Positions 7,397-48,150 of a DNA stretch of 64,000 nucleotides are shown in pieces. A program made the translations under genes and the position numbers. Every line of letters starts with the position of its first letter. Position 1 is the stretch's first letter. The notes beneath the pieces are model-generated. The model made no database searches. It had not been told where the DNA came from and was given only the letters and a program-made list of their open reading frames with translations. Origin of the DNA: Petrolisthes cinctipes (lineage: Eukaryota > Arthropoda > Malacostraca > Decapoda > Porcellanidae); assembly GCA_033782935.1 (NCBI GenBank), contig JAWQEG010000622.1, forward strand, positions 124,001-188,000, given 5' to 3'.

Positions 7397-9390
7397 ATCT
7401 CCTGATCACGATCAAGCTGGTTGCAATGCTGCCACCTGCTGATGCTTATATTGTGAAGGCAGCCGTCTCTTGATCGCACAATCGGCCATTCCTAATAGGA
7501 GGCCAAACGCGAGGCATGCAAATTTGAATTTATCACTTGCTAATCATGTGCTTATGCTCACAAAACACAAATGTTTCTTATTGAGGAGACTGACAACTTT
7601 TCGGCCAGGCTGGGACACTCTTTTAGTATCATGTCATACCTAACGAAGGACCGAGAAGGGCCAAAATGTTGTAAGAATTTTATGCCTCTTACTATTCAGG
7701 GTGGTTCAAACCTTTACCGATAAAATTACAGGGTAAATTCCTGACATGAAATTAACATATTACCACAATGATTATATTTTTTCCGAAACACAATAGATAA
7801 ATAGTAACGCCATTCCTCTCATATTATGGCTGATAGAGAACACTTCAACCCTTGAAGTTTCGGGAACAGTTCATTGCGCTACAGATCTTTTCGAATCCCA
7901 ACAGTCTCATAATTGTGATATTGGTTAAGGGTTCGGAGACTTGGTTAAGGTGTTGACTGCATCACAGCCTGTAATATCTCTCTTTTTCTTTTCATAACAG
8001 CAAGTTGAGTTTAGAATAAATAATAATTTGCTAAGCTTCACTGGACAATCGTATTCAGTCAACTATGCGTTCTATAATATTATTTTTAACTTGAACTTGA
8101 TATTCAGTGCTATGTTAGAAACTTTGCAAATCTTGGTAATTTAAGTGCGTTTTTGTTAATCACTTATTTAAATATTTATACTTACAATATGTTCATCTAT
8201 TAGCTCACAAAGCTAGAGTTTTGAATCAATGAATATTACCCGTGGTGTGTGTGATCTTCTTTGAATTACTTTTGTATTATCAAGATCATGTCTTCTTACT
8301 GACAGTCAAAAAGTAATATGTATAAGCACCTCAAACATGTGTTGGTTTGTGTCGAAATATTTGCGTCTTCAACCTAGGTTGTGTTATGTTTTGGTTTTAG
8401 TCAGTAACTTTATAAGCAGCAAACAAACCTGTGACATCAAAGCTGGGAAGGATGGTAAGGTCAGTATGAAATGTCAGACGTAACCACACACATTAGTAAA
8501 TACGTGATGGCTGGACACACGAAGATGATCACTGTAAAGAGAATAACAAAATATGTAACTTGTAAAGTCTTGTATAGCCGGTACAGAAATCCCTAGAAAA
8601 TACAATACAGCAAAGCATTTCACTGAAACAGTCTCTTTATCTCGAAAAAATAATCAAGGTAATCCTAGTTTTACATTACGAATTCACGACAGTTTCAGTT
8701 CCTCCCAGCAAATTTTCTGCTCTTATCCTTCTACATAAATTATATTGTGCTCGGTTTACCTTTTATCGGCCACTGTTATTTTAATTGTCCGTCCACTGTC
8801 TCTGTTTCCCAAGTGAAAGAAGACCTGCCCACGACCACTTACCTCACTCATTGCTGCAATCCCGTAATTCAATTTTGATTGTTCCCTTCACTATCTGTCT
8901 AAATGATACCCAAAATAATCATTATCATATTTACATTTTTCTCTTTATTTCAAAAATCAAGAATTATAATTATTTTGTTGGATTAAATTTTGTTAGTACC
9001 GAGAGAGCTCATCCATGTTATAATGTTCACTTTAGGAGATTCAACTACTTTATTGTTTCTTAAAATCCCTATGTCCATCTCCCTTCTACATTTAATTTCG
9101 TTTCCGTGAGTGATTTATGTCTGAATTAGAAAATAAAACTATTTTTATCCGGTAAAAATATATATATGTATATAGCATGTGCCAATTATGCAGAGTTATG
9201 TATGTGTATATGTATAGTAACAAGGATTGCATTATTCATAATAGTGTAACACATAACACAGATGAATGTAGAGTAACATTAAATGCAAGAGATCAAGTGA
9301 ATAATAGACGTGCAAATACAGGTGACTATAAAAAAAAAAAGCCAATGTAATCACGCCTAAACAAATAAATATACAAATAAATATAAGAAA
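7397..9390. other. No gene recognised
   Basis: AT-rich. A region near 7575-7675 has an inverted pair (ACAACTTTTCGGCC / GGCCAAAATGTTGT) that may be an old repeat. The frame at 8785-9063 has no domain I can recognise. Confidence 0.5.
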
Positions 9391-10695
9391 ACAGGTGATT
9401 TTCGCCCTGTTATTGATTTTAGGAAGATAATTGAGAAAACTGTCAAGGATAGATACCCATTACCTGTACTTAAGGATATCCTCATGGATATTGGGGAAAA
9501 TAACTGAGTCTTTAGTAGTCTTGACCTAATTAGTGGTTATTGGCAAGTAGATTTAGATGACTAATCCAAACCTATTACTGCTTTTAGCATCCCTGATGGT
9601 CATTGGCAATCTGTAAGAATGCCCTTTGGATTATCCAATGCTCCCCTAACTTTCCAAAGGATGATAAATACTATATTCAGTGACATGACTCATGATGTTG
9701 TTGCTTACTTAGATGACTTAATTATTGTCAGCCCTGATGTAACTACACACCAGCAAAAATTAGGAAGAGTCTTACACCGACTGCAGAATGTTGGATTAAA
9801 GGTCAAAATGTATTCTCAATAAAGCTGAAATAGAATTCTTTGGTCATAAAGTTAACAGCAAAGGAATTCACACTTTGGATATTAAGATTAAAGCAGTAAA
9901 GGAATTTCCTCAATCTACTACAGTAAAACAAATAAGGAGTTTCCTTGGATTATGTTCATACTACAGGTCATTCGTAAAGAATTTTGCTAAAATTGCCAGC
10001 CAACGAACAAGACTCCTAAGGTAAAATATAGAATTTAAGTTGTCACAAACAGAACAAAATAGCTTTGATCAGTTAAAACTCAAGCTCACAACTGCTTCAA
10101 TTCTCAGTTATCCAAATTATAACTTCCCTTTCACTCTCTGTACGGATGCATCAACAGATGGTCTAGGCGCAGTACTTATGCAACACACCACTGAAGGTCG
10201 TTGCAAGGTATTTGCTTACGCCAGTCGTGTTCTTAATGACGTAGGGAACAGATACAGTGTCACTCATTTGGAGGCAATGGCGGTTGTGTGGGCATTAAAA
10301 ACCTTCAGGGAAATAATTCTGGGGTATCCTATCACCGTATATACGGATCATCAACCTGTTTGTGGTCTCTTTCAAGGTAAATAAATTACAGGACAATTAG
10401 CTAGGTGGTATCAAACTATCTCGGAATTTCATCCTACTATTAAATATCTTCCTGGGCTTTTTAATAGAGTTGCAGATGCCTTATCACGCAATGTATCAGC
10501 TGCTGCTGTCATTCCCACTATTAGTGAAATAGACTTTAATGTGGAGGTTGCTAAAATTGAACAGAAACAAGACAAATTTTGGTCAAGGGTAATTTATGCT
10601 TTGGTTTCAGGTGACGAGAGTAACCTACCAGAATTACCCATTCCACTAACACAGTTTGAGGTAGAAGATGACATTTTGTTCTGGAAATTTGACTA
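9391..10695 (+). pseudogene. Gypsy-type pol fragment: reverse transcriptase + RNase H, decayed
   Basis: Remnant of an LTR-retrotransposon polyprotein that would copy element RNA into DNA. The RT part begins mid-domain at about 9391, after AAATA-type repeats. A YLDD catalytic box lies at 9706-9717, preceded by the MPFGLSNAP-type palm motif at 9619-9645. The RNase H part follows (10040-10384), with the TDAS aspartate near 10143 and a TDHQP-type box near 10345. Breaks: in-frame TGA at 9505 and TAA at 9562, a frameshift near 9815, and further stops near 10022 and 10382. Protease, gag and integrase are absent on this strand. An H/LP..N.ADALSR motif ends the RNase H region near 10490. Orientation is opposite to the integrase/env fragment at 12-15 kb, so it may be a separate copy. 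Confidence 0.88.
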
Positions 10696-11956: not shown

Positions 11957-13721
11957 ATTCATCTTCCCTAGGTTGAGTATGGTGGACCTCTATATGTCTC
12001 GATCTTCTATTTTTCTTCTTTTTAATCTCACCATTCAAAACCCTCAAACGTATGAGCAGGTAACAAGAGAACATGAAATACAATATGAATAATAAACTAG
12101 TCACTCATGACCAAGGGTACACAGCTACCCGTTGCAGATGGAAAAGAAGAGCAGATTCGATTACAGGATGAACATCAGATTTGTTTAACAATTCCATAAA
12201 TCTTATTTTCTCAGAATCAATATTAACAGTAGAAAAGTTTGCAGGGAGCGGAGGATGGACTTTCACAAATTCCACAGACTTATTTAGGACCAATCCAAGA
12301 TGATGCTTCGTGGCCAGAACGGTCTTAGTGTTACTTAAAAATGAACACGCAGGTGGAATTACAAACGTACCCACCTCAGACACATGTTTTGCTCCTGAAG
12401 GGCCATCTTCACAAATAATAGTTGCTCTTGCGGGCTTAGTGAAGGTATAATATGCAATGCCCTGAAAGTACGTTACATAAACATCTGAATTCCCTTTCGG
12501 TCTCCTGTACTCACAATGTATAACGGAGCTTGAAGCATCAGCCTGGATTAACGACAATTCACACTGGGATTCCTCGGGTCCTGTAAAAATAAAATTTAGA
12601 GCTCGGCACACCTTCAAATGATAATATGCTGTATGACAACCTTCTAGTTGATCCTTGGTTACTGCAACCACCAGTGAGCGATCCTGAGATGCAATAATAT
12701 AGTCATAGTCCACATTTAACATCATAATCTCCGCCCCCAACCTCATAGGAAATGGCTTCACCGACCATATGTTAAAGTGGACCTGATGTTTTGTTGGAAT
12801 GTGAATAAGAATGGTTTTGGTCGTTAAGCATGATTACAAAAGTGGATAGTAATAAGATACAGATTCCCCTTCAATGAATGGATTCAAACCATGCTTAATC
12901 CTAGCCACATCAACCACACCCTGAAGATCAACCACTGACAGAAGGTCAGCGTCTGCCTTACCCAGCGCTGCATTTCTTAGGTTATGGAGTAGTTTCCTGG
13001 TTTGAGTATTCAGTCCACTGATGTAATTTTCAACTATATTTAAATACTGATCTAGGTTCAAAACAAAAGTTGTTAAATCCAAATGTTTAGCCAACCTGTC
13101 TAATTCCTTAATGACCTCATTTGTCTTTTCAATAACTCCATTTACCTTTTTAGCCACATCAGATACCAGAGAAAACGTACTGTCTATTACCCGATTTTGT
13201 TCTTCAATAACCTGGTTTAAAATCTCCAGTCTACATCCCAGATATTCTACATCGTCACTAGTAGCTGTACCAAATAAAGTTTTAGCAATTATTCCTCCAA
13301 TGTGAAATAATCCCCTTTTTGACCTGCTATTTGTAATCTATTCATGAGCTAATTTCCCGACTTCACTTGAAAAATTGGGTAGATTCTGTTCTGAATAATT
13401 CATCATATCCCGTATTTGAAGATATGTATCTTCCAACTGTACCTTAATCTGCCGTTCCAGAGGGTAGCTCGAATTCATCAATTTACCTAGTTTAGCAAAA
13501 GACACTTCTATATCGTTATGAAATCTCAACTGGAAATCATCAACCCTTGTCCTTATATCCATCATAGTGCGAAGGTTGAGTCTTACTGTTATCACGTCCG
13601 TTACCACTTCGAGTCTCCTATCTGTACCCACTAAGGCACCCGGTTTTATATAGTCAGCCGAACCCTGGGAACTCACGAACGCCGCGACCAACACCACGCA
13701 GAACACTCCCAATGTCCTCAT
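11957..13721 (-). pseudogene. env: Errantivirus-like env (fusion glycoprotein) remnant
   Basis: A single reading frame starts at the ATG at 13721 with a hydrophobic signal peptide. It is interrupted only by three in-frame stops: TAG at 13338-13340, TAA at 12834-12836 and TGA at 12105-12107. Visible features are a dibasic furin-like cleavage motif around 13311-13328, followed directly by a Gly-rich hydrophobic fusion-peptide-like segment, then heptad-like helical sequence at 12834-13230. A Cys-containing ectodomain spans 12105-12761. A hydrophobic transmembrane-like stretch lies just past the TGA (about 12045-12104), before a basic tail ending near 11957. This order matches the F-like Env of insect and crustacean errantiviruses, which would mediate membrane fusion. 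The ATG lies 30 nt after the integrase stop. With three stops the copy is defective as written. Confidence 0.8.
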
Positions 13722-13750
13722 GATTGTCTGTGAACAAATTCAATATTAGT

Positions 13751-14935
13751 TTATTTTGCAAGATATTTTTCTGATCTTAGTTGCATTCTTGGCTCATGTT
13801 CAGACTCCGTTTCTATTCCCACTTGGATCATTTCTTTTGGAACCTTCTTTATCCGATCTATGTGTACCTGATGATCAGTATCTGTTATATTATCATGAAC
13901 TATTAACTTGTTTCCCAGTACCTTGTTTACAATGCATGGACCCTTGAATTTAGGAGATAGTTTACCCTGCCTCTCTGGAGTTTTTACCATTACCACATCT
14001 CCTTCCTTAATATCTACTTCCCTAGCAATCTTATGTTGCTTTGCAATATGTTCTGCCCGTGAGGCCTCCAAATGCTTTCTTACTTCCTGGTGAATAGTTG
14101 CAAATGCGTGTCCCTGGACACTCACATAGTCATCTACATTGTACACAGGGCCTTGTCTCCCAACCAATATATCATATGGTAGAACCTTATCCTCACCATA
14201 TATAATATAATGTGGTGTCTTGCCCAGTGAAGAATGTATGGAACTATTAATACAGGCGATTACCTGGCATAACCAATCTTCCCAGCCTGTTTGAATTGAT
14301 CCTGCCAGATGTCTAAGTACCTTCAAAATTTTCCTATTTACTCTCTCCACCATACCATTACTTTGAGGATGGTATGCAACCGTGAACACCTGCTTAATAT
14401 TGTAGAGCTTACAGATTTCTTCTAGGACACTATTTCTAAATTCCGTCCCATTGTCTGACAAGAGCACACGGGGTATAGTGTATGTACGAAACAATAAGTT
14501 TACTAATGCATGAACAATGGATTGAGCTGATTTATCTTGCAGAGGGACTAACACAACAAACCTACAGAAGTGATCCACACATGTCAACAAATACTTTGAT
14601 CCTTGATGACTAGTAGGTAGCTGCAACACATCTATGGCTACCACATCCCAAGGTTTAGCAGGACTTGGAAATGTTTGCAGAGGAGCGGGTGGTCGCGTAG
14701 TTCCTTTATTTCTCGCAGACGACACACATTTCTTAATATGGTTTTCTATGTCCTTCCGCATTTTCAACCAGAAATACCGCGATCTAGCTTCTCCTAGACA
14801 AGCGTCCCTCCCTTTATGACAAACAAAAATAACTCGTGTGTATTCCAGCACATAGAGTATAATATCGTATCTACAGTATGATACCCCGTTTGTTTCTGAA
14901 GGCTTGGCTGGCCCTGATAACTGTGGACTTCTCAA
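13751..14935 (-). CDS. Gypsy-type integrase (3' end of pol), 5' truncated
   Basis: Open for 394 codons, with no ATG needed because the frame is the tail of a polyprotein. It would insert element cDNA into chromosomes. The N-terminal zinc-binding region is damaged: in the C-x2-C position near residues 70-74 the second Cys is Ala. The catalytic core is complete in pattern, with D102, D161 and E197 (D-D-35-E spacing) and the expected DNGTEF and HPQSNG boxes. The C-terminal part (about 310-394) has the GDVVMVKTP / KFKGP chromobarrel-like region of the GPY/F type. It is followed 30 nt later by env on the same strand. Upstream of 14935 no RT was found on this strand, so the element is truncated or was rearranged. 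Confidence 0.88.
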   Translation of the reverse strand: MRSPQLSGPAKPSETNGVSYCRYDIILYVLEYTRVIFVCHKGRDACLGEARSRYFWLKMRKDIENHIKKCVSSARNKGTTRPPAPLQTFPSPAKPWDVVAIDVLQLPTSHQGSKYLLTCVDHFCRFVVLVPLQDKSAQSIVHALVNLLFRTYTIPRVLLSDNGTEFRNSVLEEICKLYNIKQVFTVAYHPQSNGMVERVNRKILKVLRHLAGSIQTGWEDWLCQVIACINSSIHSSLGKTPHYIIYGEDKVLPYDILVGRQGPVYNVDDYVSVQGHAFATIHQEVRKHLEASRAEHIAKQHKIAREVDIKEGDVVMVKTPERQGKLSPKFKGPCIVNKVLGNKLIVHDNITDTDHQVHIDRIKKVPKEMIQVGIETESEHEPRMQLRSEKYLAK

Positions 14936-15317
14936 ATACTTGACATGGAGTAAACCTCACATTCCTCTTTGACGTGATGAAGCAACAGCTGTATAAACTT
15001 TATTATCTCCCAGTATTTTATTTCTTATATTTGATTTTTTTCATTTTAGAACACATGTAGGCCACAGGGTATTGATTATAATTTGATATTATTAAACATT
15101 TATTATTCAAATAATTGTCAACTACCACATAACTGCAAGGACCACAACCAGTCTCTCCGATTATATGCTGCTGGCTCGTTGTTTTATTTGTAGGTTGAGG
15201 ATTCGAAAAACTGAATCTACCCACGCCCCTCCACTAATCCCAATTCCCAATGTGTTAGTGAATTAATGTTATTGAGGCCCAGGGGGGCTGGACAAAATAT
15301 TAGACCCATATTGTAAT
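14936..15317. other. No gene recognised
   Basis: Spacer between the integrase fragment and the 3' end of LINE-A. It contains only a small frame (15018-15224) without domain features. Confidence 0.5.
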
Positions 15318-36044: not shown

Positions 36045-37229
36045 AGGTTAAAGGTCCGCCAATGAGTGGCAGTCAATGGGACAGAGTGTATCACACACTA
36101 TGTGTATGAAACACAACTATAGCACGCATCACAAGGATGATGAGTGGCCCAAAGACCTCTCCACCCACGGCATCAAATACAACGGTGTGAGTATTGGGAA
36201 GGTGTTGTATGATGAGAAACACAGGATTTCAGACCTTAACACGCCTTCAATATCGTTTAATTTTAAGAAATGTTGAAAATAGTTGCCAGCTTCTTTATTA
36301 ACATGTCCGATGAAACCTCAACTGTGCATCCCATGCATTACCAATAGAACCTATGTCACCAACATCATTATGTTATGTGTGTGTGTACTGGCTTATATAA
36401 TTATATAAGTATATTACATGCACACAGAAAAGAGAGATACACGCGGAGAAGAGAGATACAGACCAATTAATAATTTTTGCTACCAAGAGACAAATGACAA
36501 AAAAAGGGTTTCATAGTCAAATTCCAATATTTCAATACAACATGCTATTATTAAAAGTATTCAGAATATTACAAGGTTGCTATCACGTGAGGGATGATGA
36601 GAGCCTTGATATTTGACATGATTTTAAACTGTTAGGTAGATACGGGGGAAATGGAAGTGTGTTAGTGGTATCAACACTTGACACATGTAATATAAAGGTA
36701 TTCACATTTGCTTCATTTAATAAAGAGCACTCTGGTTCATGATTCTTTTTCAGTTATTGTGTAAGTATTTTTCAGCGTTTAGTGCTTGATGATAACCATT
36801 GAATATTATACGAAAAAATACCGTATACAATAATATTACCTCAGTTGTTTTTGTGTTACATCATAATATGAAAAAGTTAATCTTACATTTAATTATGTTA
36901 ATAATTGACACGAATGTCGGTATATAAATAATTGATAACTGGGCTTCCACACATTTTTCACCTCCCCAAGAATAATTTCTCACCTCTCTTGTATAGACAC
37001 CCCCCCTACCCTCCTCAAATCCCTCCTTACTTCTCCCTCCCACCAGTGAATGGTTCGAGCGAGCAGAGCTCACAACTAGTGTTTCGGGGTTATCTCGGCC
37101 AACATTGACAACGCTGGGTGGGTGGGCCTTACGGGAGTGTGACCAGCTGTACAATGTTACCAGAACCGATATCACACCACTTAAAAGGTGTCTTGCCTGA
37201 GGGGGTCTTTACTTTTATGAGTGACTGTA

Positions 37230-37383
37230 CATGTGAGTGTTATGTCGTCTGCATAGGAGGCCACACGTATTTGTGGTGTCTGGGGTGTTGGTAGGTCATG
37301 CATGTATAAGTTGAAAAAGCTGGGGGACAGTACTGAGCCTTGCGGGATGCCGTTGGTAAAACTTTTTATGTTAGACTCTGGAG
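37230..37383 (-). pseudogene. LINE-F piece 2: RT palm
   Basis: Minus strand reads SFTNGIPQGSVLSPSFF, then NLYMHDLP and ASYADDIT, ending at the foldback insertion point. It begins where the 9.4-kb block starts. Confidence 0.85.
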
Positions 37384-37822
37384 TTTAGAAATAGTCAATA
37401 TTAACTTTATAATATGTGAAAGCATTTCAGTCTTGTTGCGTTAGTTAAAAATATTCCGCGATCTCAGGCCGCTTGCCAGTTGCCATTAGTACATAAACAC
37501 GAATTAGTACAGCCATGGCTGATAGTGCTGGACCAGGGTCTGAGGAGTGTTGGAAAGCAACTGAACAGAGTTCGAAAAAGTGAGTATTCTAAACATCTCT
37601 CAACGTTGAGAATGGTTTGGAAAATTCACTTGTTCGAACTTTGTCTAGTTGCTCTCCAACACTCCTTGGACCCTGGTCCAGCACTATCAGCCATGGCTGT
37701 ACTGTACATTTGGCGCGCGTTTTTAGCGGCTCGAACGTAATAAATCTGTTCGAGCTTCTGTTCGAGCGAAACATTTGGTGCGCGATTTTAGCAGCTCGAC
37801 TTTATGGTTTTAACCGATAAAT
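37384..37822. mobile_element. Left part of composite repeat E (host of the DIRS)
   Basis: Repeat sequence between LINE-F and the DIRS left end. It contains a 194-bp palindromic MITE. Its last bases (CTTTATGGTTTTAA) and the bases right of the DIRS (AGAATATTTGACATTTTAAC) are found joined at 60993-61022, which is an unoccupied relative of this site. Confidence 0.65.
37508..37701. mobile_element. Palindromic MITE-2, 194 bp, TA target duplication
   Basis: TA, then CAGCCATGGCTGATAGTGCT, with the inverse at the other end followed by TA. Arms of about 75 nt match with few differences (GGACCAGGGTC ... GGAGTGTTGG). One arm alone is present at 60872-60985. Confidence 0.85.
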
Positions 37823-37871
37823 TAGTGCATTTGTCGCGGCTTCTAGCCGCTTAAATTGTATTTATTGGTTT

Positions 37872-38082
37872 GTGAAACCAGTACAGCTGGTTGCTATAGA
37901 ATATGCCCCTTCACAAGCCCAGGCCCCGTGTAGGCATAATCTGGGTTGGAAGGGTCAATTCCGTGACGTTCATCAGAAGTAAATAAAAATTCAAATCTGG
38001 CGCTGTACTGATAGTGGAGCCACCTGGAGGTGGTGAGGTGAGGTATTAAGCCCCTCCTCCGCTGAATACCGCTCGTCCACTC
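37872..38082 (+). repeat. DIRS left inverted terminal repeat (211 nt)
   Basis: Inverse copy of 45062-45272, indistinguishable by eye. Both begin at the outer end GTGAAACCAGTACAGCTGGT. The left element end has about 49 extra outer bases (37823-37871) not shared with the right repeat, as in DIRS1, where the two repeats are unequal. Confidence 0.94.
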
Positions 38083-38135
38083 AAATGAGAAAGAAGTGAG
38101 TGTCTGCCGCATCGGGAGGTGGGTGGGACAGTAAA

Positions 38136-38236
38136 AGCTGTACTGGTTTCACAAACCAATAAATACAATTTAAGCGGCTAGAAGCCGCGACAAATGCACT
38201 ATTATTGGTATAGTGAAACCAGTACAGCTGGTTGCT
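38136..38236 (+). repeat. DIRS internal complementary region (ICR)
   Basis: 38136-38201 is the exact complement of 37823-37888 (left extremity), and 38202-38236 is the exact complement of 45249-45283 (right extremity). In the DIRS replication model this region templates or aligns the joined ends during circle formation. The join at 38201/38202 defines the element boundaries to the base. Confidence 0.94.
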
Positions 38237-38517
38237 AAGCATGCGATGCGGTAGGTGGGAGGTGAGGTGGAGGCAATCACGTGCTAGTTAAGAGTGGTTG
38301 AGAGCGGAGGGCAGGAAAGGTAACCGAGCCCGGTGAGGCAGCAGCTAACGCCCCTCCCGACACTGGCTAGGTGAAAAGCCGTGGTGGGGGAGAAGTAGCG
38401 TATACCATAAAACCGTAGACCATTCTGTTATAGACCAGAATTGTTACACATAAAGTCTTTATAGGTAGACTCAAGGGTTCGGGTCTAGGAGAGGAGGGGG
38501 GAGGTTCCCATGGATAC

Positions 38518-38564
38518 TCCCCCCCCCCCCCTTTCCTTCCCCCCCCATCCCCCCCCCCCCCCCC
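38518..38564 (-). other. Interrupted C runs (G runs on the coding strand)
   Basis: Runs of 14 or more C at 38518-38531 and about 18 at 38547-38564, between the ICR and the recombinase gene. On the transcript strand these are long G runs that could form a G-quadruplex near the 3' end. Confidence 0.6.
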
Positions 38565-38835
38565 TTATTCAAGTCTTCTGAGTTAGGGCTATGGCCCTCG
38601 CTCAGGTAATGTAATCCCGAGGGGATGAAGGAGGACACTAGGATCCAGATATCCTGTGTAATAATATCTCCTGTCACTCATCTTAGTTAATAATTGTTTG
38701 GAAAATGAATACACAAGAATTCCGTAACAATGTAAATTATTATATATTCTCTTTCACCATATGTACACGTGAAGAATGGGGATGAGTATGAAGCTGTACA
38801 AGATGTGGATGAGGTCTGGGATGATGTGACGGGAC

Positions 38836-39920
38836 TTAAATCACCCGACCTTTTCTCTTCGGGCGGCCCCTCCCCCCCATGTGTCTCCCGCGGGGACCCT
38901 GGGGAATAGGAGGTGGAGTACCCATAGCCACACAGGGGGTAGGGGAGAGCGAGTGGAACAGGTACCTCGTCCTGAAGGAAGAAGTGGACGCCCAGCCCCC
39001 TAAATCCCTGACCCTCTCCACCGAGTGAGTCCTGAGGAAGGCGAGGGAGGCGGCCACGCCCCTAACGCTGTGAGCCCTCGGGGCGTGTCCGGGATCCCCG
39101 TTCTCTATCACTCGGCAGAGAAGGCGAGCGATTGACCTAGGGAAGAGAGGGTTACCGGACCTAGAGTTGTAGAAGAGGTGGTCCGGAGAAGCCCCTCTCG
39201 TCGCCTCCACGTATGCAACAAAGGCGTGGACTGGGCAGAGGGGGTGGAAATTTCCATCCCTCAGGAACGAGGGTACTGCGAGAGGGCCAATTCTGTCGTC
39301 AGCCTGCTCGTTCTTAGCTAGAAAAGCAGGGGAGGGGGAAATGGTTAAGAAAGTAAGGTTAGGGGTTACTGAAGAAAAGGCTGTGTGACGGGTCAGGGCT
39401 GCCAACTGAGAAGCCCTGTAACCTGTAGCTAAGGCGAGCAGGAAGAGAGCTTTCTGGAGGAGGTGACAAACCTCCAGAGGGACCCCCTCGAAGGTCAGGT
39501 AGGAAAGGACACGATGAAGGGACCAGGAGGGTGCCTGGGCCCGGTGAGGTGCGGTCCCCGCCCGAATCCCCATCCTCAGGAGAGAGAGAGGCCTCTCCGA
39601 AACCTTAATGTTAAAACCCAGGAGGAGGGGATCAGACAGGGCTGCGTGATGCGCAAGCACCGTCGCCGGGGCCCTGTTGGTGGAATCGGCGAGCCACGTG
39701 AGGAATTCCAGGACTGTGTCCTCCGAGATGACCCTGGAGGGGTGTCTTCGCAAGAAGTCCTGGAATCTTTTCCAGCACGATTCGTATTGTCGCACCGAAG
39801 ACTGACGATGAGCCCTCAACATCTTGTCCACTGTCTCCTTAGTGAACCTTTTGCTGAGGACTCCCCGTAGAAACTCCAAGCGTGTAGTTTCAGTGACGCT
39901 TGGAGTGGTGCAGACAGGGT
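38836..39920 (-). CDS. DIRS tyrosine recombinase
   Basis: The frame is open from 41115 to 38836, but the family domain covers only the last ~360 codons, starting near TTRLEFLRGVLSKRF. The upstream part is read in the shadow of RT. The enzyme would insert the circular DNA intermediate. The SAM-like core-binding part (SSVRQYESCWKRFQDFL) precedes the catalytic domain, whose residues are in order: Arg in TGYRASQLAAL (R567 of the full frame), HSVRG (H682 and R685), and Tyr in FRTRYLF (Y718, codon 38962-38964). It ends in a basic tail, RGRPKRKGR. The first ~35 codons overlap the 3' end of the RT frame in another phase, a normal DIRS arrangement. The translation start is uncertain; ATG 39823 (MLRAHRQSS) would shorten the protein. 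Confidence 0.9.
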
Positions 39921-42118
39921 GCTGGAGAGGCACGCCGATCCCAACTGAAGGGGGTGCGGGCACCACCGGGACAACTCTCCGAACCACGGCTGTGCTGGCC
40001 AGCGGGGGGCTATGAGGAGAACCCTCCCCCTGAAAGTGCGCAGCTTGAGGATCGCCTTCAGGAGGACTGAAGTGGCTGGGGGTGGGAAGAGGTAGAGATG
40101 ACCCCACCTGTTCCAGTCCTCCGTGAAGGCGTCCGGGCCTCCCGCCTCTGTTCTGGATGAGAAAGTCAGGAACAGAGGGAGTAGGGCCGTGGATGGGGAG
40201 GCGAATAGGTCCACCTCCGGTGTCCCGTAGCGAAGGCAGAGAGACTCGAACACAAGGGGACGCAGTTGCCACTCGACTGACGTCCCCCTGAACCTGGATA
40301 GGGCGTCCGCCCAATCGTTCTCCCGCCCTGGCACGTAGCGGGCCGAGAGGTGAATGTCCCTCTTGGCCGCTATTGCGAAAATCTGTTCTGACAGGGACAG
40401 GAGAATTTCCGACCGTACGGTGCCCTGTTTCTGTAGGCACTGCACGGCCGCAACGTTGTCCATATCGAAGCGGACGCCTATCCTGGCAAACTGAGGGTGT
40501 CTGTTGAGCCATTCCTTCGCTACCATCAACTCCCGGGCGTTGATGTGCAGTAGCCTTTCCCCTTCCTTCCATCCCCCGCACCGTTGATGTCCCAGGCAAG
40601 ACTGGTATCCCCAGCCTACGTCCGATGCGTCTGTCGCCACCGTAATCCCCGGGGGAGGGAACACCCAGGGGACCCGCTGACGCAGGGCACCGGGACGTAG
40701 CCAGGGGCGAAGGAGGCGGTGGAGAGAGGGGGACACTTGCCTGGGAAGGTCCCTGTGTGTGGGGGACAGGTGGAGGTTTACCTCCCGCGTCAGCCTCCTG
40801 TGTTTCAGTCGTCCCAGGGGCATTGCAGGGGCCGCGAAATTTAGGGACCCGAGCAATGATTCCCACTGGCGGCGAGAGAAAGTACGGGAAAAATGCGCCC
40901 GGCGGACGTGGCGGAGGGTCCGGCGGGCGTTGTCTGGAGCGAGAGAGAGGGTGGCCGAAAGAGAGTCCCACTCTATTCCTAGCCAACACAGCTTGCGAGT
41001 GGGGGTGAGAGAGGACTTGGGGATGTTCAACAGAAACCCCATTTCCTCTAGCACTCCCCTCGCTACCCGGACGTTGTTTGCTACCTGCTCCTTGGAAGGG
41101 GCGTGAAGCAACCAATCGTCCAGGTACATGAGGGTGGGGACACCCGCCTCTGCCAGACGGGATGCTACCACCCTCACGAGTTTTGTGAAGACTCGCGGAG
41201 CTAGAGAAAGACCGAAAGGGAGCCTGGTAAACTGGAACGTCTCGGTCCCCACCTGGAAGGCCAGAAAGCGGCGAAACCTGGGGTGGATCGGGACGTGCCA
41301 GTAAGCATCCTTGAGATCCAGGGATGCTAACCAGTCTCCCTTCCTCAGAACTGTGCGGACCTGAGCAACCGAAACCATCCTGAAATGTAAAGTTTTCACG
41401 AATTTGTTTAGCTTGCTCAGGTCCATCACCAATCTCGTTTTTCCCTGATCCTTTTTGGGGACCGTGAATAAACGAGAAAGAAAGACCCTTCCCGTCGCCC
41501 GCTCCACTACCCCTTTTTCCCGCATTTCCCGCACATGCGGGACGACCGAAAGTGACACTTTGGTTGAGGCAGGAGGTAGACGTAGTGGCTGTAACGGGAG
41601 AAGACAGGTGTCAGTGAGAGTACCGTTAATCCTAATCCCCCGGGGCCCGAGGGACCCGGGGTGGTTGGGGGGAGAATGACAGGAGAGGCAGAGATTTTGA
41701 CCGCAAGGGAAAATCTGATTTTGACCTAACGGTAGCCCAAGGACGGGATTAGGCATAATTCATATGTCAGACAGTAAGGATGACAGTTACTCACCGGAAC
41801 AGTAATCCAGGGCCATGACAGGCCCTGGCGAATTATCCTTGCTGCCCAGCCGTGGGTGGGCCAGGCTGCTGACCACCCTGTGAGGCAGCCCAGAGTGGGA
41901 CCCTCAAGTGGCGCGGTCCTTCTGGGAGGGGTGGTTGAAGGACTTGGGCTTCGCGAAGGGCTTGGCGACCTGTCCCCTTCCTCGAAAAGGCTGCTGGCCC
42001 CTCTGGGAGGGCCTGTTGTGTGCTCTCGGGGGAGTGGGATAGGAGGGCCTCGGTAGCCTGGAGGGCTGGGAGGGCCTCCGGGGCTGGTAGGCTGGTCTGG
42101 CTGGCTGTGGGGCACGTG
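39816..42118 (-). CDS. DIRS pol: reverse transcriptase, RNase H, methyltransferase-like
   Basis: Main exon 41588-39816, preceded by a short exon at 42118-41795 read in the +1 frame relative to gag. The exon junction joins an RIIRQG / WITVP segment to the P-rich start of RT, matching the usual beginning of DIRS RT. RT motifs are SLDLKDAYW (first Asp), RLPFGLSLAP and YLDDWLL (codons 41126-41115). RNase H follows with TDASDVGWG, INARELMVA, FDMDN and RENDWADALSR. The C-terminus (PEVDLFAS..., LYLFPPPATS..., LIAPRWPAQPWF) resembles the Dam-like methyltransferase module found in DIRS elements. Without splicing, an ATG at 41756 opens the RT frame but lacks the N-terminal segment. Translation of pol would need +1 frameshifting, reinitiation or alternative splicing. 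The last codons overlap the recombinase frame. Confidence 0.88.
41589..41794 (-). other. Predicted intron 3 of the DIRS (206 bp)
   Basis: Donor GTGAGT at 41794-41789, after the codon-phase-0 end of exon 3 in the pol frame. The acceptor is TGTCTTCTCCCGTTACAG, ending at 41589. Removal brings the two pol frames (different phases before splicing) into register. Confidence 0.78.
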
Positions 42119-44297
42119 GCCTACGGACAAACAGAACGATTAGGACCCAAAATAGACCCGAAAAATCCTTTCAATTCACCCCGTGACAACTCGGGTAAGA
42201 CGAACACGAGAGGTACTTACTTGGAGGTGGAAGGTTTTGGTAAATTAATTACCGTTGGGAGGGAGGCGAAGATCGTGTCTGTCGCCGGTTGGTCAAAGAG
42301 GGCGGGGGACAAGGGGACAGCTCGTACCACTCCCCTCTGTGCCATTTCTGGCGCAGATTTAGCTGCCGCTTGGCGGGCTGCCAGTCTCGCCTCGGCGAAC
42401 GCCTTCGCCTCCTCCCGCATGAAGTGGGTAGCCATTGCCGCCACGCCCTCCATCACGGTGGCCATGGAAGAGAGGGTGTCACTGTAAGGGGTAAACAAAG
42501 AAAGAACCGAGCGAACCCGGGGATAAGTACCCGGGAGTAACAGGGAGACCCTTCACCCAGCATCCCTACAAACATGATACACGAGAAAGGTACTCACGCT
42601 AGCTGTACACCCGACATCTCGTGGTAGGAGTTTGTTAGGGCGTTGAGGCAGTCCCTAATCAAAGAGGCGGCTGCTCCCGTGGAGATGGTGTGGGCCAGCT
42701 CCAGACGGGTAGCAGACTCCGCCTGCCTCAATTTACCATCGGGCTCCTTCAGCTGATAGGGGACCGGGGGCTCCTTCTCCGTCTTCCACAGGCACTCCCT
42801 CAAGCCCGGGGGAGCCCGGGAATGAGGGAGGATGACGGGGAAAGACGGAGGAGGGGGCTTCCTGGGCGCGTTGTTCCTCTGGTGGTCCAGGGACTTAAGG
42901 AGAAGGGCTGGAATATCCAGGTCCCCTTCACCCTTATCCCCCGGGAAGTACGCGTCCGGGGAAAGGAGGAGAGCCGTGTTACCGTGTGAGCGGTCAATCC
43001 TCCAAGCCCCGGACAAGTGTAGCTGGCTGTACTCCACCAGGAAACCCATCGCGTCCAGGGTAGCCGCAGAGGACACCCTAGCTGAAGTGGGTAAGGGCGC
43101 TGAGATAGGACGGACCTTGTAGAAGGGAATAGCCTCGCCCTTCTCATCCGCCCCCCACTTCACCACGACGTCATCCCTCCGTATCCACACGTCTGGTTGA
43201 GCTGTGTCCGGAGACCAGGCCACCAGTCTGCCCTCCTCCGAAGAGTGGGTCCAAGCAGGAGGAAGGAGAGACCAAGAGTAGGGAAGGTATCCGTCTCCTG
43301 AAGGAGGGGGTGACGGGGACGGGGGTGCGGAGGTAACCAACTCCTCAGCTACGTCCCCCGACGGAGACTCGAGCCCTGGGGAAACGGGAGGCACGAAAAG
43401 GACTCCCACATCCCCGGGAGGACTCGAGCCCTCGACGGGAGCAGCAGCGGGAGGCGGGGGAACAGGAGCGGGTTCCGTAGCGACAGCCTGAGGTTGCGCG
43501 ACGGAAGCCCCAGGAAAAGCGTGAGGAATAAGGGTGTGGAAGATTTTAACTATCTTCCTCGACGAGGGGCTGTCCCCCCCCCGCTTACCCCTGCGGGAAT
43601 TGCGGGCGGGCGAAGGAGAGCTCCCCGACGACGAAGAAGAGGAAGAGGACGACGAAGACGAGGAGGAAGGAGAACGGCGACGAGCACGGGACTTCCTGGA
43701 GTGGCGGGACCTTTTAGCCGAACGCTTGCGTCCTCTAGAGAGGCCTGAGGAGCCAGCTCTAGCAGGAGGCGAAGCTGGGGGTTCCCTGCTGGGCCCTTGT
43801 ACCGGTGAGGCAGTCGGGGGAACCAGCGCGACAGACTCGCTCGCTTCCCGGGGGGATAAGCCCCGAGAAGGAGTCGTAGTACCGTCTAGGGAAGCAGGCT
43901 CAATCTCTCGGGCCTCAGGAGGTTCTAGCCCCTGAGACTCCGAGAGACAGGAAGAAGGGTAACGGGTCCTGAATAAACCCAGGTCCGCTCCCAAAATCGG
44001 GTCCACCCACGCCAAAGAAGAACCGTCTCGTTTGTGGGCCATTCTCCTAGCCCTCGTCCACGCCATACGAAGAGAAGCAAGGGCAGGGAGTTTGGAGCGG
44101 GCAGAAGGGGAGGTAACCCGACACAACTCAGCCCAGGGGCGGCACACACCACACGCCAAAGGGTCGTAACCCAAGGGAGTGAAGCAGGGTGCGTGAGGAG
44201 AACAGTGCAGGTGTCCGTCAGGCGAGACCCGCACGGTACATCCTGAGGCAGCACAAAGGGCACGAGTAGGCTGGGGGAGAAAAGAATACACAAACAT
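41904..44297 (-). CDS. DIRS gag-like protein, three predicted exons
   Basis: Predicted exons 44297-42598, 42481-42221 and 42120-41904 join in phase to 725 codons ending in TGA 41906-41904. A Cys/His-rich N-terminus (C15, C20, C32, H35, C38 from the ATG at 44297) resembles a zinc finger. A Pro/Ser/Arg-rich centre follows, with an SR-like stretch (RKRSAKRSRHSRKSRA) and poly-Ser, then a more ordered region and a C-terminus rich in Pro, Arg and Gln. Such a protein would bind element RNA, by analogy with other DIRS gag proteins; I cannot align it here. The start is uncertain: a good acceptor ends at 44271, and a short upstream exon (ATG 44650-44648, donor GTAAGG at 44635) would give an alternative start in phase. 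Confidence 0.8.
42121..42220 (-). other. Predicted intron 2 of the DIRS gag (100 bp)
   Basis: Donor GTAAGT at 42220-42215 and acceptor CTGTTTGTCCGTAG ending at 42121. Splicing completes a Lys codon (AA+G) and keeps the gag frame open. Confidence 0.78.
42482..42597 (-). other. Predicted intron 1 of the DIRS gag (116 bp)
   Basis: Donor GTGAGT at 42597-42592 and acceptor TTTGTTTACCCCTTACAG ending at 42482. Splicing completes an Ala codon (GC+T) and links the two largest gag frames. Without it, gag ends at a stop at 42594. Confidence 0.8.
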
Positions 44298-44635
44298 GGG
44301 TTAACACGTGCAAACACTGGAACACAAACCCATCCTCCCCGAAGGAAAGAAGCGCGGGACACGCCCGCTGAACCTGGGGACCAGAACACAATCCCCCACA
44401 CTCGCGCAGCCGCCCAGGGAAAAAAACCCCGTAAAACCAAAATCGTCCGCCACATGGAGCGGGTAAAAAAGGAGGCCCCCCCGGACCGAAGAACCAGAAG
44501 GAGGGGTAGGAGGGGACCCGATAGCCTGAGAAGAAACACTCCAGGCTGAAATTGGAAAAAACCCCAAAATAAAATAAAAAACCCCCGCTCGGGAGAGGAA
44601 GGGAGAACCAGGGCACAATTCTCCCTCCCCCTTAC
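44271..44635 (-). other. Possible 5' intron of the DIRS (365 bp)
   Basis: Donor GTAAGG at 44635 follows a 15-nt mini-exon starting at ATG 44650. The acceptor TTCTTTTCTCCCCCAG ends at 44271, and the phase agrees with gag. Weaker evidence than for the other introns, because the ATG at 44297 also opens the frame without splicing. Confidence 0.5.
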
Positions 44636-45061
44636 CGAGAGGGGACACATAATAATCGGGGGAGGTAAGAGGAAGGTCTGCAAAGACCCCATGTGGTCAC
44701 CACGTGGAGTGGGGAAGTCCCACGTGGAACCCACTAATCTCGCTAAAAACCCCAGAAAACCCCGATAAAATACACATGAAGAATGTACTAGTGGCAGGAG
44801 GGACAGTGAAATAGGGGACAGACGGAGAAAAACTCCGAAAACAGGGGCTGAAAAGCCCCCTTCGCTTAAGGAAAGAACTAAGTCCTAACGAAGAAAAAAA
44901 CCCCATAAACACATAAAAACCCTCCTAGAAAACACACAATATACATCTGCAAAGCAGGCCAGCCACTAGAACACAAAAGAAAAATTAGCAGGAACACGCG
45001 ACACAATACCATAGCGTAGCAGCGAGGAGCGTAGATGTTGACAGGCGTGTGTTCCGCGACA

Positions 45062-45272
45062 GAGTGGACGAGCGGTATTCAGCGGAGGAGGGGCTTAATA
45101 CCTCACCTCACCACCTCCAGGTGGCTCCACTATCAGTACAGCGCCAGATTTGAATTTTTATTTACTTCTGATGAACGTCACGGAATTGACCCTTCCAACC
45201 CAGATTATGCCTACACGGGGCCTGGGCTTGTGAAGGGGCATATTCTATAGCAACCAGCTGTACTGGTTTCAC
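45062..45272 (-). repeat. DIRS right inverted terminal repeat (211 nt)
   Basis: Inverse of 37872-38082. It lies upstream of gag on the coding strand and is therefore the expected place of the element promoter, though no specific promoter motif was identified. The element ends about 11 nt further on, at 45283. Confidence 0.92.
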
Positions 45273-45514
45273 TATACCAATAAAGAATATTTGACATTTT
45301 AACGTAATTCTTACGTCACGTTACGTCATGTTACGTTATACCAAAACCTGCGCCTGGTGATGATGATTCAGAATATATATGGGTTTTGGATGTAGGTGTA
45401 ACCGTTTTCGAGTTATAAGAGGACAAACAGAGACGGTTTGTCATTTATTGTATAGATCATAGATGTGCAGCAGATGTGGTTCCACCGTGTATGGGGGCCT
45501 TAATTAAGATGAAA

Positions 45515-46577: not shown

Positions 46578-46786
46578 ATGTACATATAATAGTGAAACCA
46601 GTTGTTTTAACCAGATTCATAGTAGATGACGTAATTTTTACGTCAAGTTACGTCATGCTACGTTATACCAAAACCTGCGCCTGCTGATGGTCATTCAGAA
46701 TATGTATGGGTTTTGAATGTAGGTGTATCCGTTTTCGAGTTATAAGAGGACAAAAAGAGACGGATTGCCATGTATAGTATAGATGA

Positions 46787-47705
46787 CTGATCTCATGTGT
46801 AACATGGGTTATTCTTCCTCCCAAGAAACTGGCTAGCCATCTTTTTGTATTGTTGTGCATATTTGTGTTGTATATTTTGTTTGTGAGGTTGTTGCGGGGG
46901 ATAGCATCAAATGCTTTACTAATGTCCAGTGTGACTAGGAGTGTTCTGTGTGGGGGTCTATCTGAGTTGATGACATAAATTCTTGTGTGAGGTCTGTAAG
47001 AAGAGTGTTTGTTGAGTGTAGTGGTCTGAAACCATGTTGTGAGGATGCAAGGGGAATGTGTGGTGTGATTTGGCTGATGATGAAGCGTTCAGTAACCTTG
47101 GAGGGGGTGCAAAGGAGGGTAATGGGGCGGTGTGATGAGGGTAGTATGGGATCTTTGTTGGGTTTGGAGATAGTGATGATGTTTCCGTAATTCCAGGCAT
47201 TGGGTATTGCTTTGTGTGAGTAGCTGTAGTTTTCTTTGTTAGTGAGTGCCTGTATGCCTTGTGGTCCGAGGTGTTTAAGGTGAATGTTGCTGATCTTATC
47301 TAGACCACAGGCAGGTGAGTGTTTGAGGTTGTGGATGATGTGGTTTGTTTGATGGTTTGTGAATGGTGTATGGACTGAATCGGTGGGGAAGCGTCTTCTG
47401 CGTCTGATGACTCGTCGGTCTTCAGGGTGCGGATGAAGGTGGCTGATGTGAGAAAAGTGCTGGATGAGGGTGTTTGCTTGTTGTTTATTATAGGGTATAG
47501 TGTCTGCTGTTGTGATGGCTGCATGTGATTGTGTAGTGTTGCTGTTGGACAGTGTGATGCTGTTTACTGTTTTGTAAAGTTTTCTGATGTTTGCTTTGTG
47601 ATCAAGTGTGTTGACAAACCTTTGCCAATTTAGTGTTTTATGTTCTCTAATTTTGTTGTTTATTTGTGTGTTTAGTGTTTGTATTTGGTGTACTGTGTGA
47701 TGTGT
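46787..47705 (-). pseudogene. LINE-F piece 1: RT fingers
   Basis: Minus strand reads a linker (47520-47300), CGLDKISNIHLKHLGP, IPNAWNYGNIITISKPNKD, SSHRPITLLCTPSKVTER, SQHGFRPLHSTNTLL, and ends at RWLASFLGGRITHVTHE where the 9.4-kb block starts. Some frame breaks (for example near 46940). It continues in piece 2 at 37383. Confidence 0.85.
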
Positions 47706-48150
47706 GAGTGGAGTTAGGGATGAGTGTTTGAGTGTGTCTTCCTTTCCTTCCTCCCTTTATCTCTTTCTTTCCTGTCTCCCTCCCTTCATTTTCTGTATCT
47801 TTCCCTTTTCCTTTTTTCGTCCTTCTTTCATTCCTTTCCCATTTTCTTCTCCCCTTCTGTCTATGTTTCTTTCCTGCCATTCTCTAATACCTATTTTTTT
47901 CTTTTTCCTAGTTATCTCTTTATTCCCGTATTTTCTTCCTCTCTTCTCGTATATTTGTCCTCCTTTCATTCTTCCCGTATTTTCAACTTCCTCTCTTTAT
48001 TTCCGTATTATCAACCTCTTCTCTATCTTTTTCCTCTCTTTATTCCCGTATTTTCTACCTTCTCTTTATTTATTCCCATACTCTTTCCACCTCTCTTTAT
48101 TCCCGTATTTTCTTCCTCCGTCACAACAATCCCACATTTCACCCCGAAAC
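47706..48150. repeat. Pyrimidine-rich minisatellite (TTTATTCCCGTATTTTC units)
   Basis: CTCTCTTTATTCCCGTATTTT-like units recur at least six times from about 47915 to 48115, preceded by CTTTCCT-rich sequence. Confidence 0.82.

Follow-up and report, generated by a model that had tools for sequence, protein, structure and literature searches.

An intact DIRS-type retrotransposon of Petrolisthes cinctipes with three probable spliceosomal introns in gag and pol

A retrotransposon on the minus strand of a Petrolisthes cinctipes contig is, on the evidence of its sequence, probably a young and intact DIRS-type element in which three spliceosomal introns interrupt the sense transcript, with proteins made from spliced RNAs and copying from RNA which keeps the introns. 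The window referred to below is the whole 64,000-nt stretch analyzed (contig JAWQEG010000622.1, positions 124,001 to 188,000 of the forward strand), and all coordinates are counted from its first letter. Splicing out introns 1 and 2 would produce Gag, and splicing out intron 3 would complete the conserved part of Pol ahead of the reverse transcriptase (RT). Gag-Pol would be reached either through a shifted intron 2 acceptor or through a frameshift, and RNA retaining the introns, sense or antisense, would be reverse transcribed into the next insertion.

The ends of the element were defined by terminal and internal repeats:

37823..45283, minus strand: DIRS-type retrotransposon of 7,461 bp with its 5' end at 45283, based on inverted repeats and internal complementary region
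45062..45283, no strand: 5' inverted terminal repeat, based on repeat matching, outer 36 nt matched by the internal complementary region
37823..38082, no strand: 3' inverted terminal repeat, with the longer outer end
38136..38237, no strand: internal complementary region (ICR)

The repeat arm at 45062-45272 (211 nt) is 100% complementary to 37872-38082, and in the ICR a 66-nt complement of the left end abuts a 36-nt complement of the right end, both halves again matching at 100%. Inverted terminal repeats (ITRs) with an ICR matching both outer ends are characteristic of DIRS1-like elements, and this ITR-plus-ICR anatomy is described for DIRS elements in the accessible text of PMC3266345. The element thus files under DIRS by its anatomy, with its tyrosine recombinase (YR) and methyltransferase (MT) matches below the Pfam cut-offs. 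With respect to a Penelope-like alternative (Penelope-type RT, GIY-YIG endonuclease), the anatomy likewise points to DIRS. Because the repeat arms match perfectly the copy is young, and since an ORF survey of the element showed the gag, pol and YR frames to be otherwise open, the retention of introns by this recent copy is no old relic. Sequence scans found no DNA relatives of the element among viral contigs.

The coding parts and introns, in order of the sense transcript, are as follows:

42598..44297, minus strand: gag exon 1, ATG at 44297
42482..42597, minus strand: intron 1, 116 nt, phase 2, GTGAGT to ACAG
42221..42481, minus strand: gag exon 2, 261 nt, 87 codons
42121..42220, minus strand: intron 2, 100 nt, phase 2, GTAAGT to GTAG, with a branch-like CTAAT 23 nt upstream of its 3' end
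41795..42120, minus strand: exon 3, with two reading frames, the gag tail (stop at 41904) and the start of pol
about 41795-41890, minus strand: pre-RT motif, within exon 3 in the pol frame
41589..41794, minus strand: intron 3, 206 nt, phase 0 (pol frame), GTGAGT to ACAG, with a branch-like CTGAC 26 nt upstream of its 3' end
39816..41588, minus strand: pol exon 4, RT (YLDDW), RNase H and methyltransferase-like region
38836..39898, minus strand: YR, a separate frame overlapping the end of pol, both Pfam matches weak

The three introns of the original prediction are present in the letters, with the donors and acceptors it described. Removal of introns 1 and 2, both in phase 2, completes the split codons and yields a single 725-codon gag from the ATG at 44297, as had been proposed; unspliced, gag stops right behind donor 1 or donor 2, at 567 or 654 aa. 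The earlier claim that gag is split at three places was borne out for these two introns and fails for the third, gag ending at 41904 within exon 3. Removal of intron 3, in phase 0, connects the RT frame to the other reading frame of exon 3, that of pol, and the predicted joining of pol frames is thereby recovered. Neither the two-frame reading of exon 3 nor the nearby alternative acceptor able to switch Gag to Gag-Pol had been part of that prediction.

The RT was matched by RVT_1 in Pfam (E 4e-23), and RNase H was recognized by eye alone, with no Pfam match within the window; RT and RNase H are both as in DIRS1-like elements. A Dam-like methyltransferase gave only a weak match in the window (E 0.066), and its match in the relative P0007 (E 0.001) is also below the cut-off. 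Both YR matches, Phage_int_SAM_4 (E 4e-4) and Phage_integrase (E 0.003), fall below the curated Pfam cut-off; R, HxxR and Y, which we take to be the residues of the YR motif, are visible by eye. In total 306 proteins were related to pol, 120 of them among the matches listed, and the P. cinctipes protein P0008 was 100% identical over 58% of the searched part of pol. The three best matches to gag were hypothetical proteins of P. cinctipes, and a further gag search returned no relatives beyond three host models. The predicted structure of gag had a mean pLDDT of 38.9, too low to be useful, and searching the PDB by sequence with an alignment of gag gave no match. The gag tail behind intron 2 is rich in proline and arginine and poorly conserved in alignments, including that with P0077 of Scylla.

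To compare the introns with related proteins, every nearby GT-AG pair which leaves the frame open was ranked, giving 35 pairs for intron 1 and 68 for intron 3. The intron 1 pair ranked first of 35 by similarity to the mantis shrimp (Oratosquilla oratoria) gag P0004, which shows 49% identity across 80% of the part searched, belongs to a cluster of 41 sequences and is continuous across junction 1; the score was 777 versus 761 for a runner-up sharing the same acceptor. The intron 3 pair ranked first of 68 by similarity to three non-host relatives (P0007, P0012, P0014), with a summed score of 2379 versus 2328 for the runner-up, again with the same acceptor. A splice-signal score which is blind to the relatives placed the same pairs at the top of their lists of 35 and 68. 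Removal of introns 1 and 3 thus restores proteins continuous with those of relatives, and for these two the claim of spliceosomal introns in a DIRS element is upheld along two separately computed lines. Intron 2 is more weakly supported, since continuity with relatives can be followed there only through the poorly conserved gag tail. Its case is a strong donor, an ordinary acceptor, the CTAAT site and two mantis shrimp models, P0004 and P0006, whose common stretch, aligned by eye at this end, has PSQPSET as its last residues, about two codons from the position homologous to intron 2; beyond it the models diverge, much as they would at a splice donor.

No ATG occurs in spliced pol until the pre-RT motif is over, so that pol has to be reached from gag, through a splice junction or by frameshifting. 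One further feature bears on the choice:

42105, minus strand: last base of an alternative intron 2 acceptor, 16 nt further on (CCCCACAG), giving an open Gag-Pol fusion

Moving the acceptor by these 16 nt would bring ribosomes into the pol frame and so produce Gag-Pol, replacing ribosomal frameshifting. Host models P0002 and P0003, which also carry junctions 1 and 3, have a junction directly after PKPSTSN that corresponds to this +16 acceptor; in host model P0001 the gag-to-pol join lies at another place. Among the 26 AGs between 42121 and 41903, 12 would yield an open Gag-Pol fusion, and the +16 site stands out as the first such AG and through the two host models, not by uniqueness. The gene models are themselves predictions in which GT-AG pairs may be chosen just to join frames. 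The P. cinctipes annotation was made, according to the accessible text of PMC10849366, with BRAKER, for which mapped RNA-seq reads from gill served as training data, and the host models are therefore no direct RNA evidence.

We tentatively suggest that intron 2 may be a built-in switch, in which two acceptors 16 nt apart direct exon 3 into either the gag or the pol frame, the proportion of Gag to Gag-Pol is set through the spliceosome, and the intron cannot be lost. If so, copying either of the spliced RNAs gives an insertion able to make only one of the two proteins, and therefore only copies of unspliced RNA would stay autonomous, which would explain how a retroelement keeps an intron. It is also possible, at somewhat less than an even chance, that the introns are spliced while Gag-Pol arises by +1 ribosomal frameshifting in exon 3. 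The gag and pol frames do overlap there, between 42120 and the end of gag at 41904, with pol in the +1 frame relative to gag, and translational frameshifting is given as a common retroelement strategy in the accessible part of PMC3735527; on the other side, two host models put the switch at the +16 acceptor. By either route to Gag-Pol, the element would produce its proteins from spliced RNAs.

The preferred reading of a spliced, intron-keeping element also bears on the template. Passage through spliced RNA should erase introns from a copied element, and since the new copy has introns, the RNA which is reverse transcribed must keep them. The originally proposed division, in which unspliced RNA is the template and spliced RNAs make protein, we infer from the presence of introns in a young, intact copy. 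DIRS-1 makes antisense RNA, and the template could instead be an antisense RNA in which the sense introns are unrecognizable, rather than unspliced sense RNA. An antisense template has been proposed for intron retention in Penelope (accessible text of PMC3846280); we regard it as unlikely here. An intact DIRS copy with introns would in any case inform which RNA these elements copy.

Across junction 3, spliced pol reads GCLTGWSAAWPTHGWAARIIRQGLSWPWITVP up to the junction and PLRLPPASTK after it. When the pol piece was compared with 124 related proteins, 120 matched, and 67 of these 120 alignments span the junction, including those of three host gene models (P0001-P0003). The nearest non-host relatives (P0007, P0012, P0028 and P0014, about 56-79% identical) align without gaps at junction 3. 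Many more distant relatives have gaps at or near it, and in P0118, P0101 and P0113, from contigs of 39 kb and more, the gap lies a few residues behind it. Because the pre-RT motif is continuous across the junction, intron 3 can be said to interrupt a conserved stretch which the proteins of relatives carry without the insert. Read-through coding of the intron stretches in relatives, named beforehand as counter-evidence, was not seen at the protein level, the proteins being without these stretches. The missing insert reflects either intronless DNA or a sequence taken from spliced RNA or a spliced model, and continuity of a protein at a junction is by itself no proof of an intron in that gene.

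Among the observations which run against the model, intron 3 contains an ATG-started open RT frame, and Pol could thus arise unspliced, minus the pre-RT motif. From 41759 onward the remainder of the intron is open in this frame, whose second codon is the ATG, and intron 3 would then be optional or no intron at all. We consider this improbable. The pre-RT motif is continuous across the junction in relatives, and Pol started within intron 3 scored 689, 624 and 594 against the three non-host relatives compared, versus 845, 799 and 735 for the spliced form. Splicing of all three introns is retained as the preferred reading.

The introns have GT-AG ends with a donor, a pyrimidine tract and a branch-like site, as spliceosomal introns do; in intron 1 the branch-like site is a weak CTTAT at -46, the sole one not close to the intron end. 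Their G+C content is 46-52% versus 59-67% in the exons. Ranked singly with a donor matrix and ad hoc acceptor weights, donors 3, 2 and 1 were 1st, 3rd and only 14th among the 408 GTs of the element, and the acceptors of introns 1, 2 and 3 were 2nd, 30th and 4th among its 394 AGs. The element carries 3 GTRAGT motifs on its minus strand versus a mean of 2.1 in 200 shuffles (range 0-6), and 2 on the plus strand, so that the number of these sites is at chance level and it is their positions which are unusual. The alternative of a dead copy, with the stretches explained by insertion or frame-breaking decay and their likeness to splice sites by coincidence, draws on this chance-level count and is highly improbable given that the ends and ICR match at 100%, the reading frames of gag, pol and YR are open apart from these stretches, and the homology-best and signal-best pairs coincide.

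Some Ngaro elements may have been reported with introns, which would lower the novelty of the present element. Intron-bearing Penelope-like elements were reportedly described by Arkhipova in 2003, and to our knowledge these elements have no gag and no YR. Their RT lineage and endonuclease are also unlike those of the present element, although they too have spliceosomal introns in an ORF and are able to move intron-bearing sequence, according to the accessible text of PMC3846280. DIRS1-like retrotransposons, including decapod ones, share the RT/RNase H, MT-like region, YR, ITRs, ICR and a crustacean host with the present element but differ in that the three introns are a feature of the latter (PMC3266345, PMC2685390, as far as their accessible texts go); no word beginning with "splic" and no "intron" was counted in the main text of either. 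In the accessible parts of these two papers and of PMC3783388, PMC6681497, PMC5633606, PMC4157794 and PMC12477816 no DIRS introns were found, nor among the places listed in the accessible parts of PMC5718144, PMC5890265, PMC3212892 and PMC8547959. A search made mostly outside subscription papers gave no report of introns in DIRS elements among the matches listed.

Splicing also sets Gag versus Pol in BARE1 and copia, where unspliced RNA is packaged, and BARE1 has a 104-nt intron at the gag/pol border (accessible text of PMC3735527). These are single-frame LTR elements whose spliced message has lost Pol, whereas Pol of the present element would itself need splicing; plant Ogre likewise splices between open frames but is a Gypsy LTR element (same source, accessible text). 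With intron-bearing Penelope-like elements and Gag/Pol splicing in copia and BARE1 already known, a DIRS element with introns is an addition, a variant on these systems. If an intact YR retrotransposon does carry several introns, one more lineage would be added to those which retain them, and it would offer a testable splicing-based Gag/Pol switch.

Three further candidates were considered. Homology between introns 1 and 2, hinted at by a common GTRAGTACCTYTC donor, was not significant over their interiors, where 44 of 500 shuffles were as good globally and 227 of 500 locally. An intron between pol and YR, placed between WPAQP and C in models P0009 and P0017, has a poor donor in the window (score -3.1) and would cut off the end of pol which is kept in relatives; it was taken as a model artefact. 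A candidate 5' intron at 44271-44635, with an ATG at 44692, was unsupported, its N-terminus resembling that of the mantis shrimp protein no better than shuffles did (441 of 1000). It had been considered for its acceptor at 44271, which is the best-scoring one in the element.

The donor string GTRAGTACCTYTC is common to introns 1 and 2 of gag, where it occupies 42585-42597 and 42208-42220 (minus strand), and when up to one mismatch was allowed only these two sites were found in the whole window, against an expected 0.27. Beyond this shared donor string, sequence comparison of intron 1 with intron 2 revealed no significant likeness. The top-scoring acceptor of the DIRS element lies at 44271 (minus strand), 26 nt past the gag ATG, and an interval from 44635 to this acceptor is a possible candidate for a 5' intron.

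A fusion of pol with the tyrosine recombinase (YR) occurs in gene models from both P. cinctipes (P0009, 32 members) and Portunus (P0017). The two share the junction WPAQP|C, for which the donor in the window is weak.

39899-39984, minus strand: pol-YR junction of the gene models, WPAQP|C in P0009 and P0017

On both sides of the element lie remains that resemble a different kind of retroelement.

46663-47756 and 37181-37384, minus strand: non-LTR-like reverse transcriptase pieces, RVT_1 matches

On one flank RVT_1 profile positions 4-60 and 60-117 were matched, both below the Pfam cut-off, while positions 113-162 were matched above it on the other. Because such pieces lie on both sides, an older LINE was probably the host site of the DIRS element together with its adjoining repeats. 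Near the left end of the element is an inverted repeat (37506-37703) of two abutting 99-nt arms, 87% complementary. AAGATTAAAACACACAC-type repeat arrays are present at 45.5-46.4 kb, and a 163-nt stretch (45302-45464) recurs at 46629-46791 with 90% identity.

Other retroelement pieces were also observed in the window.

12105-14956, minus strand: LTR-element integrase frame followed by an envelope-like frame, rve and Baculo_F matches

The integrase frame matched rve (E 2e-14), and the envelope-like frame, which carries two in-frame stops, gave a weak Baculo_F match below cut-off (E 0.004). At 9364-9810 (plus strand) an RT-like stretch has about 24-35% identity to DIRS-type RTs among the best 40 matches listed.
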